A stretch of 64,000 nt of DNA from positions 372,001 to 436,000 of the forward strand of contig NZ_JADFFL010000003.1 of assembly GCF_015222005.1 (NCBI RefSeq). The letters are read 5' to 3'. Shown piece by piece: positions 27,388-37,573 of the stretch (its first letter is position 1; every line of letters begins with the position of its first letter). The translations under genes were made by a program, and so were the position numbers. This DNA comes from Mucilaginibacter myungsuensis (GTDB lineage: Bacteria > Bacteroidota > Bacteroidia > Sphingobacteriales > Sphingobacteriaceae). The notes under the pieces were generated by a model, which did no database searches, was not told the origin of the DNA, and saw only the letters and a program-made list of their open reading frames with translations.

Positions 27388-27512
27388 TCGGGTGTCATCC
27401 TGAGCCTGTCGAAGGATAGTGCGTGAGGACTCGCCACAATGTTTATCCAACGATGCATAGCTAACGATCCCCGCACCATGGTTCGACGGGCTCAGGATGA
27501 CGCCCAATAAAA
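27388..27512. repeat. Palindromic intergenic repeat, family A, copy 1
   Basis: Starts GTCATCCTGAGCCTGTCGAA and ends with the near-complement TTCGACGGGCTCAGGATGAC, with an internal GC-rich and AT-rich loop of about 75 bases. Related copies are at 32879, 33015 and 35153. Confidence 0.8.
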
Positions 27513-32878: not shown

Positions 32879-32996
32879 ATGTCACCCTGAGCTTGTCGAA
32901 GGGCGACGTGCGGGGGATCGCCACAATGCACAGTCGCCACTTGCATAGTGGCTACCCCACCGCACCATGGTTCGACGGGCTCACCATGACACCCTC
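32879..32996. repeat. Palindromic intergenic repeat, family A, copy 2
   Basis: Ends are GTCACCCTGAGCTTGTCGAA and TTCGACGGGCTCACCATGAC, inverted with mismatches. The inner part has GGGCGACGTGCGGGGGATCG and the hairpin CCACTTGCATAGTGG. Confidence 0.8.
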
Positions 32997-33014: not shown

Positions 33015-33126
33015 TGGGTAGCTTATTGAAAGGCGACGTGCGCGGGGCATGGCCGATATAAATGGTCAATACTTGCATTGCGTCAAGCCCTCCGCACCAT
33101 AGTTCGACGCGCTCACTATGACACCC
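33015..33126. repeat. Palindromic intergenic repeat, family A, copy 3 (decayed left arm)
   Basis: The right arm GTTCGACGCGCTCACTATGAC and the inner AAAGGCGACGTGCG match copy 2, but the left arm has lost the CCTGAGCTTG text. It looks like an older copy placed directly beside copy 2. Confidence 0.65.
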
Positions 33127-33208: not shown

Positions 33209-33997
33209 GTGAAAAACAACACATCATCATACGCATTAATAACCGGGGCAGGTAAAGGCATAGGCAAAGCCATGGCCGGGGTGCTGGCGCAAAAAGGGTA
33301 CAACCTCATCGTTGCCGCCCGTACCGAAAGCGACCTGCAGCAACTAGCCGCAGATATCAAGGCTAAATACCCCGTCGATGTCCGGTACATCACTATCGAC
33401 CTGTCCAAACCCGGTGCTGCCCAACAGCTGACCGAACAAAGTTTAGCGATCAGCAGCAATATCTCCATCCTGATCAATAACGCGGGTTATGGCCTTTGGG
33501 ATGATTTTGAAAAGCTGGAACTGCAAAGTATGATGGATATGATGCAGGTGAATATGAATGCGCTGGTGAGCCTGACGCATCTGCTACTGCCTACTTTGAA
33601 GGCGCAACAGCAAAGCTATATCCTTAACGTGGCCAGTACGGCGTCTTATCAATCGGTGCCATACCTTACGCTGTATGCGGCCAGCAAGGCTTTTGTATTG
33701 TCGTTCAGCAGGGGGCTGTCTGTCGAGTTTAAGGATACCAATGTCTCGGTTACCTGCCTATCGCCCGGCGCTACGGCTACCAACTTTACGGCGCGGGCCA
33801 ATATGCAGGCGCTGGATCATATTACCGATAAGGTGAACATGCAGCCCCTGCCCGTGGCCGAATTTGGGATCAAAGCTATGTTCGCTAAAAAGACCGAGGT
33901 GATCCCCGGCTTTATGAACAAGCTATCGGCCTGGGGTGGCAGGCACATGCCTAAGGCTTTGGTAGAGCGCGTAGCGGGCCGTTTATACGGGAAATAA
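33209..33997 (+). CDS. Short-chain dehydrogenase/reductase
   Basis: GTG start at 33209. The 262 residues show the Rossmann motif T-G-A-G-K-G-I-G, N-N-A-G near residue 91 and the catalytic Y-A-A-S-K, with the preceding serine in V-A-S-T-A-S. A C-terminal stretch (V-I-P-G-F-M-N-K-L-S-A-W-G-G-R) is typical of the DltE/YqjQ-like subgroup. NAD(P)-dependent carbonyl/alcohol reaction, substrate unknown. Confidence 0.9.
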   Translation: MKNNTSSYALITGAGKGIGKAMAGVLAQKGYNLIVAARTESDLQQLAADIKAKYPVDVRYITIDLSKPGAAQQLTEQSLAISSNISILINNAGYGLWDDFEKLELQSMMDMMQVNMNALVSLTHLLLPTLKAQQQSYILNVASTASYQSVPYLTLYAASKAFVLSFSRGLSVEFKDTNVSVTCLSPGATATNFTARANMQALDHITDKVNMQPLPVAEFGIKAMFAKKTEVIPGFMNKLSAWGGRHMPKALVERVAGRLYGK

Positions 33998-34013: not shown

Positions 34014-34044
34014 CTTGCAGATGATGTTTTTCTCTCTACATTTG
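34014..34044 (+). promoter_or_regulatory. Consensus Bacteroidota promoter before the Cys6 leader ORF
   Basis: CTTG at 34014-34017 and TACATTTG at 34037-34044 are 19 bases apart, matching TTTG-N19-21-TAnnTTTG in all conserved positions but the first. Transcription would start near 34050, giving a leader of about 190 bases before the dioxygenase gene. This is the best promoter match noted in the window. Confidence 0.75.
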
Positions 34045-34080
34045 CAATGTCTACAAAAACGATAGACTTTATATAGATTA

Positions 34081-34164
34081 ATGAAATACCTGTTAGTACA
34101 TAAAGATCGCCCGGTGCGAATGACCGCTGAAAAGATGGTCATGTGTTGTTGCTGTTGTTGTTAA
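34081..34164 (+). CDS. Leader peptide ORF ending in six consecutive cysteine codons
   Basis: ATG 34081 opens a 27-codon frame that ends M-V-M followed by six cysteines (TGT TGT TGC TGT TGT TGT) and TAA at 34162-34164. It begins about 30 bases after the predicted transcription start and 73 bases before the dioxygenase gene. Runs of one codon in a short leader ORF are the hallmark of ribosome-mediated attenuation, and Cys-rich upstream ORFs with this role are known from mycobacteria. Here regulation by cysteine or charged tRNA-Cys is an inference. A metal- or thiol-binding micropeptide is the alternative. Confidence 0.65.
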   Translation: MKYLLVHKDRPVRMTAEKMVMCCCCCC

Positions 34165-34172
34165 CGCCCGTC

Positions 34173-34202
34173 GTTTTCGCCGCTGCCGAAAGGTGGCTTT
34201 AC
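34173..34202 (+). promoter_or_regulatory. Two competing hairpins after the Cys6 leader ORF
   Basis: Between the leader stop and the next gene, GCTGCC-GAAA-GGTGGC (34186-34201 region; two wobble pairs) is followed by TTTA. The overlapping TTTCG...CGAAA pair (from about 34176) would exclude it. This is the kind of alternative pairing an attenuator needs, but the stems are short and the T-tract is weak. Energies were not computed. Confidence 0.35.
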
Positions 34203-34237
34203 AGTAATACACTTTTTATCATCTAATAATTTTCATC

Positions 34238-35041
34238 ATGTCTGCATATCAAAAATTCACCCTGGGTGATCGTATCACCGCGCAACAGCGCGCGTTCTTT
34301 AAAGAAAATGGATTTATACACTTCACAAATTTTATACAGCGCCAAACCGTTGCCGATATCATCCGCTCGTCCGAAGAGGTGCAGCAACATTGGATAGACA
34401 ATGAGGTAGAAAAGGTGAACGGCGTGCCCATTAAGTACGGTAAAGATATCGACGGCAAACCGATAGTACAGCGCTTCGCCTTCATCAATCAGCATAGCTT
34501 ATTACTGTCCGAGTTTACTAAGGACCCGCGTTTTGGCACTTTGTTGGATCTGATCGGTCCCGAGGCCAGGCTTGGGCTGACCGAGAAGGATGGCATGGTG
34601 TTCAACCACTATGTTAACTCGGACGAGAGCAGCTTTACCAAAATGGGCTGGCATACCGACGGCCTGCGCGACATCTTTCACGGCGCTAAGCTTAACCCAA
34701 TGCTGAACGTAGGCATACACCTGAGCGATCAGGTTGCCGAGAACGGTGGCCTAAGGGTTTTGCCCGGCACGCACGAACAGAGTTTATACGGGATGCTTTT
34801 CCGCAAGCGCTATTTTTTGGATCACAAAGCAGATGAACGTGAAATAGCGATCGCCCCCAAAGCGGGCGACCTGACCATCCACGACGGCCGCCTATGGCAC
34901 CGGGTAGCACAGTCGACCCTAACCGGTGAGGCGAGTCGCCGACGGGTGATCTATATCCCCATCATAGCCGGCAAGTACCAGCCCAAACACGCCGACAGCC
35001 CAACGGCTTTTTATCAACGTTTTGCAGGCATCGTTAAATAA
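34238..35041 (+). CDS. Phytanoyl-CoA dioxygenase (PhyH)-like Fe(II)/2-oxoglutarate enzyme
   Basis: The 267 residues carry the metal facial triad H-T-D (in M-G-W-H-T-D-G) near residues 140-142 and a distal His in D-G-R-L-W-H-R-V near 215, followed by an Arg (S-R-R-R) suited to 2-oxoglutarate binding. G-G-L-R-V-L-P-G-T-H is the usual PhyH core. The substrate is unknown; bacterial members hydroxylate lipids, amino acids or natural products. It is the first full gene after the Cys6 leader. Confidence 0.9.
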   Translation: MSAYQKFTLGDRITAQQRAFFKENGFIHFTNFIQRQTVADIIRSSEEVQQHWIDNEVEKVNGVPIKYGKDIDGKPIVQRFAFINQHSLLLSEFTKDPRFGTLLDLIGPEARLGLTEKDGMVFNHYVNSDESSFTKMGWHTDGLRDIFHGAKLNPMLNVGIHLSDQVAENGGLRVLPGTHEQSLYGMLFRKRYFLDHKADEREIAIAPKAGDLTIHDGRLWHRVAQSTLTGEASRRRVIYIPIIAGKYQPKHADSPTAFYQRFAGIVK

Positions 35042-35048
35042 GCGCATT

Positions 35049-35141
35049 ATGTTGATCGCATTACTGGTAACATACCTGATCCGCAAGTGGAAGCAGCGGA
35101 CGGTGGCGGAAGGGATAGTTGAGATCAAGGCTACGGCCTAA
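35049..35141 (+). CDS. Possible 30-aa membrane micropeptide
   Basis: ATG 35049, eight bases after the dioxygenase stop, opens 30 codons to TAA 35139. The first eleven residues are hydrophobic (M-L-I-A-L-L-V-T-Y-L-I), then R-K-W-K-Q-R and an acidic/basic tail. It is too short to judge by coding statistics; position and amphipathic layout are the only support. Confidence 0.3.
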   Translation: MLIALLVTYLIRKWKQRTVAEGIVEIKATA

Positions 35142-35152
35142 CGCCAAAACAA

Positions 35153-35264
35153 AGGGGTGTCATCCTGAGCCCGTCGAATGAGGGAGCGTGGGGCAAGACT
35201 ATGCAAAGTAAGCATAAAGCAGAGGCCACTGCACCATGGTTCGACAGGCTCACCATGACACCCA
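35153..35264. repeat. Palindromic intergenic repeat, family A, copy 4
   Basis: GTGTCATCCTGAGCCCGTCGAA at the left and TTCGACAGGCTCACCATGACAC at the right are inverted with a few mismatches. The centre holds GCAAAGTAAGC and GGGAGCGTGGGGC. It lies between the micropeptide ORF and the tRNA-Cys gene. Confidence 0.8.
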
Positions 35265-35287
35265 CAAAAGAATTTTCCGTAAAAAAC

Positions 35288-35359
35288 GGTGGAGTGGCCG
35301 AGCGGTTAGGCGGGGGTCTGCAAAACCCTTCACGACGGTTCGAACCCGTCCTCACACCT
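35288..35359 (+). tRNA. tRNA-Cys (GCA) with a bulged acceptor stem
   Basis: All arms fold: D-stem GCC/GGC, anticodon stem GGGGT/ACCCT with loop CTGCAAA (anticodon GCA at 35320-35322), T-stem GACGG/CCGTC with loop TTCGAAC. The acceptor GGTGGAG pairs with CTC-CACC only if A35354 is bulged. The discriminator is U35359, as tRNA-Cys requires. CCA is not encoded. The single extra A may be a real variant, a mutation, or a sequence error. No promoter of its own was seen. Confidence 0.88.
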
Positions 35360-35409
35360 CTAAAAATTTTGCTCTCTCTCATAATTTGGTTTATAATTGG
35401 TTGAAAGAC

Positions 35410-35439
35410 GCCCCCTGCCCATCAGGGGGCTCTTTTTTT
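35410..35439 (+). terminator. Strong intrinsic terminator after tRNA-Cys
   Basis: GCCCCCTG (35410-35417), loop CCCAT, CAGGGGGC (35423-35430), then TCTTTTTTT. This is a perfect eight-pair GC stem with a T-run, the first clear terminator after the promoter at 34014. Confidence 0.92.
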
Positions 35440-36240: not shown

Positions 36241-36570
36241 ATGGGGACCACGAAAACAGAGATATTCACCGCCGAGCAGAACCGCCTGGCCAAACAGCTA
36301 AAGGCGATAGCCCACCCGGCCAGGATAGCGATACTGCAAGAGCTGATCCGTGCCGAGGCTTGCATCTGCGGCGAGCTGGTGTCGGAGTTCGGGTTGGCGC
36401 AGGCGACCATCTCCCAGCATCTGAAAGAATTAAAAAATGCCGGACTGATCCAGGGTAATATCGAGGGCACCAGCGTATGCTACTGCATCGAACCTAGGGC
36501 CTGGAAAAAGTTGCAAAAAGAGATGAGCAAACTTTTTGCATCCTACACCGATCGCGATAACTGTTGCTAA
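36241..36570 (+). CDS. arsR: ArsR/SmtB-family metalloregulatory repressor
   Basis: The 109-residue winged helix has Q-L-K-A-I-A-H-P-A-R-I-A-I-L-Q-E-L-I near the start, the sensor helix E-A-C-I-C-G-E-L-V (C-x-C, near residues 41-43) and recognition helix A-Q-A-T-I-S-Q-H-L-K-E-L. It ends D-N-C-C, giving extra thiols for As(III)/Sb(III). It should repress the operon until arsenite binds. The operator overlaps its own promoter. Confidence 0.93.
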   Translation: MGTTKTEIFTAEQNRLAKQLKAIAHPARIAILQELIRAEACICGELVSEFGLAQATISQHLKELKNAGLIQGNIEGTSVCYCIEPRAWKKLQKEMSKLFASYTDRDNCC

Positions 36571-36588
36571 AAAAATTTGAGACAAATA

Positions 36589-36604
36589 ATCGCAATATTA
36601 CGAT
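36589..36604. promoter_or_regulatory. ArsR operator 2 (between arsR and DUF6428 gene)
   Basis: ATCGCAATATTACGAT is the exact reverse complement of operator 1 and is followed by the same ACAA. It starts 18 bases after the arsR stop and ends 20 before the next start, so the repressor may act at two places in the unit. Confidence 0.75.
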
Positions 36605-36624
36605 ACAACTTAATTACAAACGCA

Positions 36625-37137
36625 ATGAAATGGCAAAATTTTAAAGAAAAACTGCAAAATAGCAGCACTTTTCACCTCCAATTTCAATACGCCGACAGCA
36701 AGCTTGTCGACCCGTCGTTCCACATTACCGAGATCAAACAAGCGCCCATCACATCGGTAGATTGCGGCGGCGTAATGAACAAATGGACCGAGATAATCAT
36801 CCAACTTTACGAACCTGAAATACGCGAGCAAGACCGCTCCATGACGGTGAATAAAGCGCTATCGATAATTGAATTGGTAGAGCGTTCACTGCCCTTGGAC
36901 CCCGATGCGGAGGTGAAAATAGAGTTCGGCAATGCCACATTCGATACCCGTCAAATGCTGCCATCGGATATCACAGTCGACGGTGATAATTTGCTGATCG
37001 ATCTTCGCCCGGACGCTGTACAATGCAAAGCCAACGAGCGTGGCGGCAGTTGCGGACCATCGGCCAAACCAAAGATCCAATTAATAAATTTAGCTGTGGA
37101 TGGTAACTCTTGCACGCCAGGTGGTGGGTGCTGTTAA
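36625..37137 (+). CDS. DUF6428 family protein of the arsenic unit
   Basis: ATG 36625 (M-K-W-Q-N-F-K-E-K-L) is preferred over a longer frame from 36577 that would cross operator 2. The 170 residues contain T-S-V-D-C-G-G, W-T-E-I-I-I-Q-L, and end P-G-G-G-C-C. I recognise it as the DUF6428 family found between arsR and arsC in Bacteroidota. Its reaction is unknown. The vicinal Cys at the C-terminus, like that of ArsR, suggests arsenite binding or delivery. Confidence 0.8.
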   Translation: MKWQNFKEKLQNSSTFHLQFQYADSKLVDPSFHITEIKQAPITSVDCGGVMNKWTEIIIQLYEPEIREQDRSMTVNKALSIIELVERSLPLDPDAEVKIEFGNATFDTRQMLPSDITVDGDNLLIDLRPDAVQCKANERGGSCGPSAKPKIQLINLAVDGNSCTPGGGCC

Positions 37138-37152
37138 TTGTATCGTAACAAT
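37137..37152. promoter_or_regulatory. Possible ArsR half-site before arsC
   Basis: ATTGT-ATCGTA-ACAAT forms an inverted repeat across the DUF6428 stop and the arsC start and contains TATCGTAA as in operator 1. It lacks the second CGAT half, so binding would be weaker or absent. Confidence 0.3.
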
Positions 37153-37573
37153 GAAGAACATTTTAGTACTCTGCACCGGCAACAGTTGCCGCAGCCAGAT
37201 AGCCGAGGGCTACTTACGCCATTTTGCCGGCGATAAAGCCAATATTTACAGCGCAGGTATCGAGACGCACGGCGTTAACCCAAGGGCGATAGAGATCATG
37301 AAGCGGGACGGGATAGACATATCGCAACACACATCAAACAATGTAAATGAGTATGCCGGTATCCTCTTCGATTTTGTGATAACAGTATGCGATAACGCTA
37401 AGGAGAGTTGCCCCTACTTCCCTACACAGGCGGTAAAATTGCACTATAACTTCCCGGATCCGGCCAAAGCGCAAGGCACCGAAGAGCAGATCATGGAACA
37501 ATTTCGCGAGGTGCGCGAGATGATCCGAAAGTACGTACAGAACTTTGTGAATGAGAATTTGAGAGATGTTTAG
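37151..37573 (+). CDS. arsC: Arsenate reductase, thioredoxin-coupled (low-MW phosphatase fold)
   Basis: ATG 37151 gives 140 residues. The P-loop C8-T-G-N-S-C-R14 binds arsenate, and C80 and C87 in V-C-D-N-A-K-E-S-C-P form the relay disulfide of the pI258 type. F-P-D-P-A carries the general acid (D103). It reduces arsenate to arsenite with thioredoxin. No arsenite exporter (ArsB/Acr3) is in the window. The 3' end overlaps the convergent regulator by four bases. Confidence 0.93.
   Translation: MKNILVLCTGNSCRSQIAEGYLRHFAGDKANIYSAGIETHGVNPRAIEIMKRDGIDISQHTSNNVNEYAGILFDFVITVCDNAKESCPYFPTQAVKLHYNFPDPAKAQGTEEQIMEQFREVREMIRKYVQNFVNENLRDV

Follow-up and report, generated by a model that had tools for sequence, protein, structure and literature searches.

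The window analysed here, a 64,000-nt stretch of the Mucilaginibacter myungsuensis genome, contains a short leader ORF that ends in six tandem Cys codons and lies ahead of a gene for a PhyH-family oxygenase, a micropeptide and a tRNA-Cys (Table 1). Comparison with related genomes revealed a conserved leader, a hairpin within it, a placement of the Cys codons right at the stop codon in most leaders, and a recurrent placement of tRNA-Cys genes after the units that such leaders precede. On this comparative evidence it is very probable that the leader senses the charging of tRNA-Cys. On balance we also favour, with appreciably less assurance, the whole account in which this leader governs a sulfur-starvation unit that includes a tRNA-Cys at its tail in some strains.

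Table 1. Positions of the features of the locus within the window.
Feature	Position	Strand	Basis
Bacteroidota-type promoter: TTG (34015-34017), 19 nt, TACATTTG (34037-34044)	34015..34044	+	Direct reading
Inverted repeat GTCTAC-AAAAACG-ATAGAC, just 3' of the -7 box	34049..34067		Present in orthologues
Leader ORF GTG...TAA, VRMTAEKMVMCCCCCC, 16 codons; alternative in-frame ATG 34081	34114..34164	+	Comparison with relatives
Hairpin inside leader ORF (ATGACC...GGTCAT), 5' of the Cys codons	34120..34142	+	Folding energy vs synonymous recodings
Six tandem Cys codons TGT TGT TGC TGT TGT TGT, then TAA	34144..34161	+	Direct reading
PhyH-family Fe(II)/2-oxoglutarate oxygenase, 267 aa	34238..35041	+	Pfam PF05721, 1e-13
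Micropeptide MLIALLVTYLIRKWKQRTVAEGIVEIKATA, 30 aa	35049..35141	+	Related peptides in orthologous loci
REP-like palindromic repeat between micropeptide and tRNA, 107 nt	35156..35262		Repeat count, fold
tRNA-Cys (GCA), bulged A in acceptor stem, U discriminator 35359	35288..35358	+	ARAGORN, Rfam RF00005 42.8 bits
Terminator hairpin GCCCCCTGCCCATCAGGGGGC + TCTTTTT (T7)	35410..35437	+	Intrinsic-terminator scan

The leader ORF and the genes that follow it

The preliminary description of this DNA had placed a consensus promoter at 34014-34044, and direct reading identified there a promoter of the Bacteroidota type, which was absent from the output of a generic sigma-70 scan. The PhyH-like gene, micropeptide, tRNA with a GCA anticodon and terminator were likewise found where described. 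A matching promoter box (TACATTTGCA or similar) occupies the equivalent position in the orthologous loci L002-L006. The inverted repeat that follows the -7 box, missing from the earlier list of features, is common to the orthologues and to the PhyH leaders of Flavobacterium and Pedobacter, and is likely an operator or a 5' hairpin. In a whole-genome pattern search, the sole exact match to promoter plus repeat was the PhyH locus itself. A broad operator regulon was discarded as an explanation, given that no other clear promoter-plus-repeat site was present in the genome and one further PhyH site was found in 60 family genomes. Separately, a palindrome of the TCTACT-n-AGTAGA type was observed near the promoters of sulfur genes and of some tRNA-Cys genes (L378, L375, L371, L425, L428-L430, PhyH and S10), and is a candidate operator for a sulfur regulator.

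Regarding the leader ORF, it had been read as 27 codons ending in a Cys6 run; the run was confirmed, but its start was not. Relatives carry ATGCGAATG followed by a Cys run and a stop codon at the equivalent site, with ATG as start codon where the window has the GTG at 34114, and the ATG at 34081 lacks a counterpart in the nearest orthologues, so the conserved start is that at 34114. An upstream in-frame ATG is present in some Pedobacter and Flavobacterium leaders, so the window leader may also have a longer form. Taken alone, a Cys run is weak evidence, since a pattern count revealed nine sites of this genome where a run of four TGY codons leads into T(A/G)A. Among the 68 distinct close PhyH loci (PhyH identity of 65% or more), 67 possessed a Cys-run leader at the same site, where the preliminary description had expected to see it in relatives; the leader was of the MRM type in 62 loci, five had the Cys run without MRM, and one was devoid of the run. 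No MRM-type leader was present in six more distant PhyH loci (51-56% identity). A leader pattern matched 85 of 400 family genomes, some of these matches being due to chance. Among the matches listed for named genomes, this leader recurred in Flavobacterium, Pedobacter, Mucilaginibacter, Pontibacter, Marivirga and other Bacteroidota, and most of those from other phyla looked like chance coding repeats. Cys was the last codon, abutting the stop, in 92 of 103 distinct MRM leaders. Over these 103 leaders TGT was twice as frequent as TGC, and the ratio of TGC to TGT was 11 to 1 in the five window genes counted.

The hairpin of the window leader showed a folding energy of -9.4 kcal, in comparison with a mean of -3.3 in synonymous recodings (p = 0.007). 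The mean for 58 leaders was -7.9 kcal vs -4.6 kcal after recoding (Wilcoxon p about 1e-9, with kinship among leaders ignored). In Sphingobacteriaceae the hairpin lies 3' of ATGCGAATG, and its letters differ with the pairing kept (arms CCCTTT/AAAGGG, CACCTT/AAGGTG, CCGCTT/AAGCGG and CCATCC/GGATGG). The Sphingobacteriaceae leader hairpin is more stable than synonymous recoding permits. Flavobacterium leaders have no such hairpin and show a plain A/T-rich 50-nt gap instead.

A terminator scan revealed no intrinsic terminator between the window leader and PhyH, and terminator-like hairpins followed 7 of 59 leaders (1.9 expected), a proportion on which an intrinsic terminator was rejected as a general rule. 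By eye, single folds of the leaders showed no conserved alternative (antiterminator) pairing, and a pairing of the Cys codons with the PhyH start codon, seen by eye in one or two leaders, was not conserved. Rfam matched the tRNA alone in the window, with no T-box or other element. The leader is not a trp-type attenuator, because no terminator lies between it and the gene. Of the mechanism proposed in the preliminary description, the sensing of Cys-tRNA charging is strongly supported by comparison, but not attenuation of the classical terminator type.

The commonest first gene after MRM leaders was PhyH. Other first genes encode Peptidase_S10, SusC-type TonB receptors, AhpC/TSA-like proteins, a porin, a PLP enzyme of Cys/Met metabolism (MetY, judged by sequence) and an alpha/beta hydrolase that by sequence is homoserine acetyltransferase (MetX), the latter followed by homoserine dehydrogenase. 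Leaders of the form MRM...CCCC-stop before genes other than PhyH were found in Mucilaginibacter, Pedobacter, Flavobacterium, Pontibacter and Marivirga. The genes behind these leaders thus belong to sulfur and Cys/Met metabolism, from which a role in sulfur supply is predicted for PhyH and S10. At locus L441 the neighbours of the PhyH cluster include a serine acetyltransferase-like gene and a methionine transporter (the latter judged from sequence). A second leader in the source genome (MRM-CCCCC, at G000:C8:186712; L024, L485) precedes a Peptidase_S10 gene, with a cysteine desulfurase gene in divergent orientation and no tRNA close by.

The PhyH product matched PF05721 with 52.5 bits (cut-off 22), and its metal triad (H139-x-D141, H221) and the 2-oxoglutarate residue R235 were invariant in 26 homologues. 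Its predicted structure (pLDDT 92) matches PhyH enzymes; an assignment of the substrate from structure was abandoned, the best matches being scattered over many diverse members of the family. Most of 35 orthologous loci have a peptide related to the micropeptide (ML..L...YL.R..K) immediately 3' of the PhyH stop codon, and the micropeptide is probably a real small membrane protein. An SDR gene (33209-33997) lies upstream of PhyH; SDR adjoins PhyH in nearly all loci, leaderless ones included, and is located downstream of PhyH in the more distant ones.

Auxiliary tRNA-Cys genes after sulfur units

The tRNA-Cys of the window displays a GCA anticodon, a cloverleaf and a U discriminator, lacks an uninterrupted 7-bp acceptor stem, and is the lowest-scoring of the 44 tRNA matches in the genome, which has three tRNA-Cys genes, this copy included. 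The bulged A on the acceptor 3' strand is kept in all seven sequences of this type (the window and six other genomes), in which 100% of cells were paired and five pairs had changed on both sides, as expected of compensatory changes. The gene for the canonical tRNA-Cys stands apart from these, in a constant context after a gene for a TrmH-like methylase by sequence (L171, L434, L439, L442), and carries its own promoter box in the source genome. A second odd type of tRNA-Cys, with an A-G start (AGTCGCG...CGCGACGTC) and a probable A1-G72 mismatch, is widespread in the genus (L157, L161-L163, L173, L174, L176-L178). The REP-like palindrome ahead of the window tRNA has an RNA fold of -53.5 kcal (z -5.5). 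Seven arms of this repeat occur in the window against 0 expected; besides the copy ahead of the tRNA, they lie at 27393-27502, 32880-32991 and 33103-33123.

Among 82 PhyH and S10 loci, 9 had a same-strand tRNA gene no more than 400 nt downstream, and 10 out of 10 such genes were tRNA-Cys, a share to be compared with 3 of 44 among all tRNA genes of the source genome. The assignment of the tRNA-Cys to the unit made in the preliminary description is therefore backed by a placement that is both recurrent and specific. In seven genomes the gene follows PhyH by 10-246 nt and in the same orientation, namely the source, G225 and G239 of the source genus, G158 and G406 of genus g30, and G091 and G112 of genus g31; it follows S10 in G024 and G230. 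Random placement would yield about 0.01 loci of this kind; the true significance is below what this figure implies, because the loci are related and partly picked by their leader, but with as few as three to five independent events p would be about 1e-3 to 1e-5. The 30 best PhyH loci from a set of genomes drawn evenly include 5 with the tRNA-Cys. The tRNA-Cys genes involved fall in three sequence types, which suggests great age or repeated gain. Judged from these comparisons, the placement of tRNA-Cys after PhyH and S10 is no accident. An accidental neighbour had been our first idea, given the absence of the gene in L002-L005 and L007, and was dropped when broader sampling revealed six more genomes in which tRNA-Cys follows PhyH. 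It has to be noted that 61 of the 68 PhyH units have no adjacent tRNA, so a Cys sensor would work without one. The comparison with relatives called for in the preliminary description bore out the Cys run generally, and the order of PhyH and tRNA in a minority of loci but not in most. No tRNA remnants were detected near PhyH in 18 tRNA-less loci (cmscan, E up to 1).

With respect to promoters, the preliminary description had found none for the window tRNA. In agreement with this, the exact TAnnTTTG box was absent at all seven PhyH-linked tRNA-Cys genes, the window copy included (0/7; search region running from the last 200 nt of PhyH to the tRNA). Among the other tRNA genes of the source genome, a box was present within 70 nt in 26 of 43, and 36 of 43 possess either the box or another tRNA within 200 nt. 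In G112 and G091 there is little room for a separate tRNA promoter, because the tRNA lies 10 and 14 nt after PhyH. A tRNA-Cys with its own promoter can nevertheless occur, as the second copy at L378 has its own box with a palindrome ahead.

The genus has further auxiliary tRNA-Cys genes, placed after genes controlled by SAM riboswitches and encoding peroxiredoxin (L428, L429, L430) or cysteine desulfurase (L425, L181); auxiliary copies also follow AhpC/TSA-like genes (L431, L436) and SusC-SusD (L427, with the Cys-rich leader MHASPKACMCSCCK, and L437). In G250 (L440), a promoter, a palindrome and a Cys leader are followed some 55 nt on by tRNA-Cys, with no protein gene; this arrangement appears to be a copy of the PhyH unit L441 that lacks PhyH. 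If it works, control there would have to act on transcription, as there is no gene to translate. A tRNA-like element with a promoter box and palindrome of its own lies after PhyH in G022 (L371); the anticodon arm seems to be missing from it, and neither ARAGORN nor Rfam called it a tRNA. This element and the tRNA-Cys at L376 each have downstream a terminator similar to that of the window.

Proposed control by Cys-tRNA charging and competing explanations

We infer that the unit is an operon for sulfur starvation under the control of its leader ORF, which would gauge tRNA-Cys charging through ribosome stalling. When Cys-tRNA is scarce, the ribosome would halt on the Cys codons beside the stop, the internal hairpin would open, the RNA just past the stop would be covered, and PhyH would be expressed; with ample Cys-tRNA the ribosome would depart and expression would drop. 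The off-step would consist either of Rho-dependent termination in the gap thus freed, similar to tnaC, or of a loss of PhyH translation, as proposed for mycobacteria, because no intrinsic terminator separates leader and gene. The idea of the preliminary description that the unit senses Cys-tRNA charging is thus strongly supported by a Cys run kept at the stop, at the same site, before PhyH and other sulfur genes.

In the source strain and several relatives the unit would end in an extra promoterless tRNA-Cys, whose supply would follow the same signal by read-through. For the source strain we lean only slightly towards including the tRNA in the unit, as the -53.5 kcal repeat palindrome precedes it; tRNA-Cys copies of normal context elsewhere in the genome also count against the unit account. 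A self-correcting loop is a more tentative proposal, to which we give somewhat less than an even chance. The same reserve applies to the wider picture of a closed circuit, in which the leader would measure charged tRNA-Cys, the operon would make tRNA-Cys, and the odd auxiliary tRNA-Cys genes of Sphingobacteriaceae would be operon 3' tails, their supply set operon by operon by Cys codons, SAM riboswitch or palindromic operator. Under cysteine shortage, more (uncharged) tRNA alone would not restore charging, and the loop may be most sensible if tRNA supply, not cysteine, is limiting, or if extra tRNA readies the cell for recovery. Were the off-step translational, the tRNA would not follow the leader signal.

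Two other explanations accept the leader and question its bearing on the tRNA. The leader might control PhyH translation only, with tRNA-Cys arising independently of it from weak read-through or an undetected promoter. The lack of a terminator after the leader, the Flavobacterium leaders with a mere A/T-rich gap, and the many units without a tRNA agree with such a translational role. On the contrary, the restriction of close downstream tRNA genes to Cys, the G250 leader placed directly before tRNA-Cys, and the missing promoter box in seven PhyH loci count against an independent tRNA, and we regard this explanation as improbable, at roughly a quarter of the weight of certainty. Slightly less improbable, although still unlikely, is that extra tRNA-Cys genes are kept near sulfur genes so that sulfur limitation raises the supply of tRNA by common transcriptional control through an operator or SAM riboswitch, with the Cys leader as one of several controls and without any loop. 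The tRNA-Cys genes after SAM-riboswitch peroxiredoxin and cysteine desulfurase genes, which have no Cys leader, fit this; the Cys leaders before tRNA-bearing PhyH, S10 and SusCD units are left unexplained by it.

The regulatory nature of the ORF is itself denied if it encodes a functional Cys-rich peptide, metal- or thiol-binding or modified. MRM and the Cys run are indeed kept at the amino acid level, but the middle of the peptide varies where the RNA hairpin is kept, the Flavobacterium peptide amounts to little more than MRM plus Cys, and the leaders sit 45-105 nt ahead of mutually unrelated sulfur genes, all of which makes a functional peptide very unlikely. As for a chance TGY repeat with unrelated neighbours, the frequency of such repeats in the genome would have made it plausible for a single locus, but the conservation at the same site in close PhyH loci and before other families refutes it, leaving it a negligible probability. 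Stalling at the Cys codons under low charging continues to be our preferred explanation of the leader.

Relation to described leader systems

Leaders with cysteine codons have been described from mycobacteria and other actinobacteria (PMC1262725; Canestrari et al. 2020, via PMC9094748, PMC13236596). The mycobacterial polycysteine uORFs resemble the present leader in being short ORFs with tandem Cys codons at the stop, before sulfur genes and without an intrinsic terminator. They are leaderless and actinobacterial, whereas the Bacteroidota ORF begins about 70 nt after the -7 box (transcription start judged from the box), has an MRM start (with CGA for Arg), often contains a hairpin, precedes other genes and is sometimes followed by tRNA-Cys. 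In Rhodobacterales, the uORFC-8-2 motif upstream of cysS also has tandem Cys codons, is thought to sense Cys-tRNA charging, and has an output that restores Cys-tRNA (PMC8632094). That motif shows two Cys codons inside a stem, an intrinsic terminator and a synthetase as output (PMC8632094), in contrast with the longer run at the stop, the lack of a terminator and the output of dioxygenase with or without tRNA-Cys in the Bacteroidota leader. None of the leaders examined here was linked to cysS.

Leader-peptide attenuation has been suspected for amino acid operons of Flavobacterium psychrophilum (PMC9723704), and such leader peptides, like trpL-type attenuators, share with the Cys leaders the presence of control codons in a leader ORF. 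The trpL-type attenuators differ in their terminator/antiterminator pair, which was not found in the Bacteroidota Cys leaders. A further parallel is tnaC of E. coli, where the ribosome is halted at the end of the leader ORF, there is no intrinsic terminator, and the off-step is due to Rho. The Cys leader would be alike in the halt at the end of the ORF without intrinsic terminator, Rho being only a possibility for it. tnaC senses tryptophan through the nascent peptide and not through charging at the codon level.

No description of Bacteroidota Cys leaders or of tRNA-Cys tails of sulfur operons was found in the literature searched, which was open access with few subscription papers. The order of leader, PhyH and tRNA, of which the preliminary description knew no described case, was equally absent from the open-access papers searched. 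A family of probable Cys-charging leaders is widespread in Bacteroidota and apparently undescribed so far, and tRNA-Cys as an output of Cys-codon control is possibly a new idea. The leader family offers a route to the sulfur regulon of Bacteroidota and ties the PhyH oxygenase and S10 peptidase to it. Transfer RNA genes are mostly viewed as constitutive; a tRNA gene controlled by its own charging would make feedback on tRNA supply directly testable in harmless soil bacteria, and this locus would offer a natural case in which the tRNA sensed is also a product.

Elsewhere in the window, genes for an ArsR-family regulator, a DUF6428 protein and a low-molecular-weight phosphatase (arsenate reductase-like) were observed at 36241-37573, forming a probable arsenic cluster.
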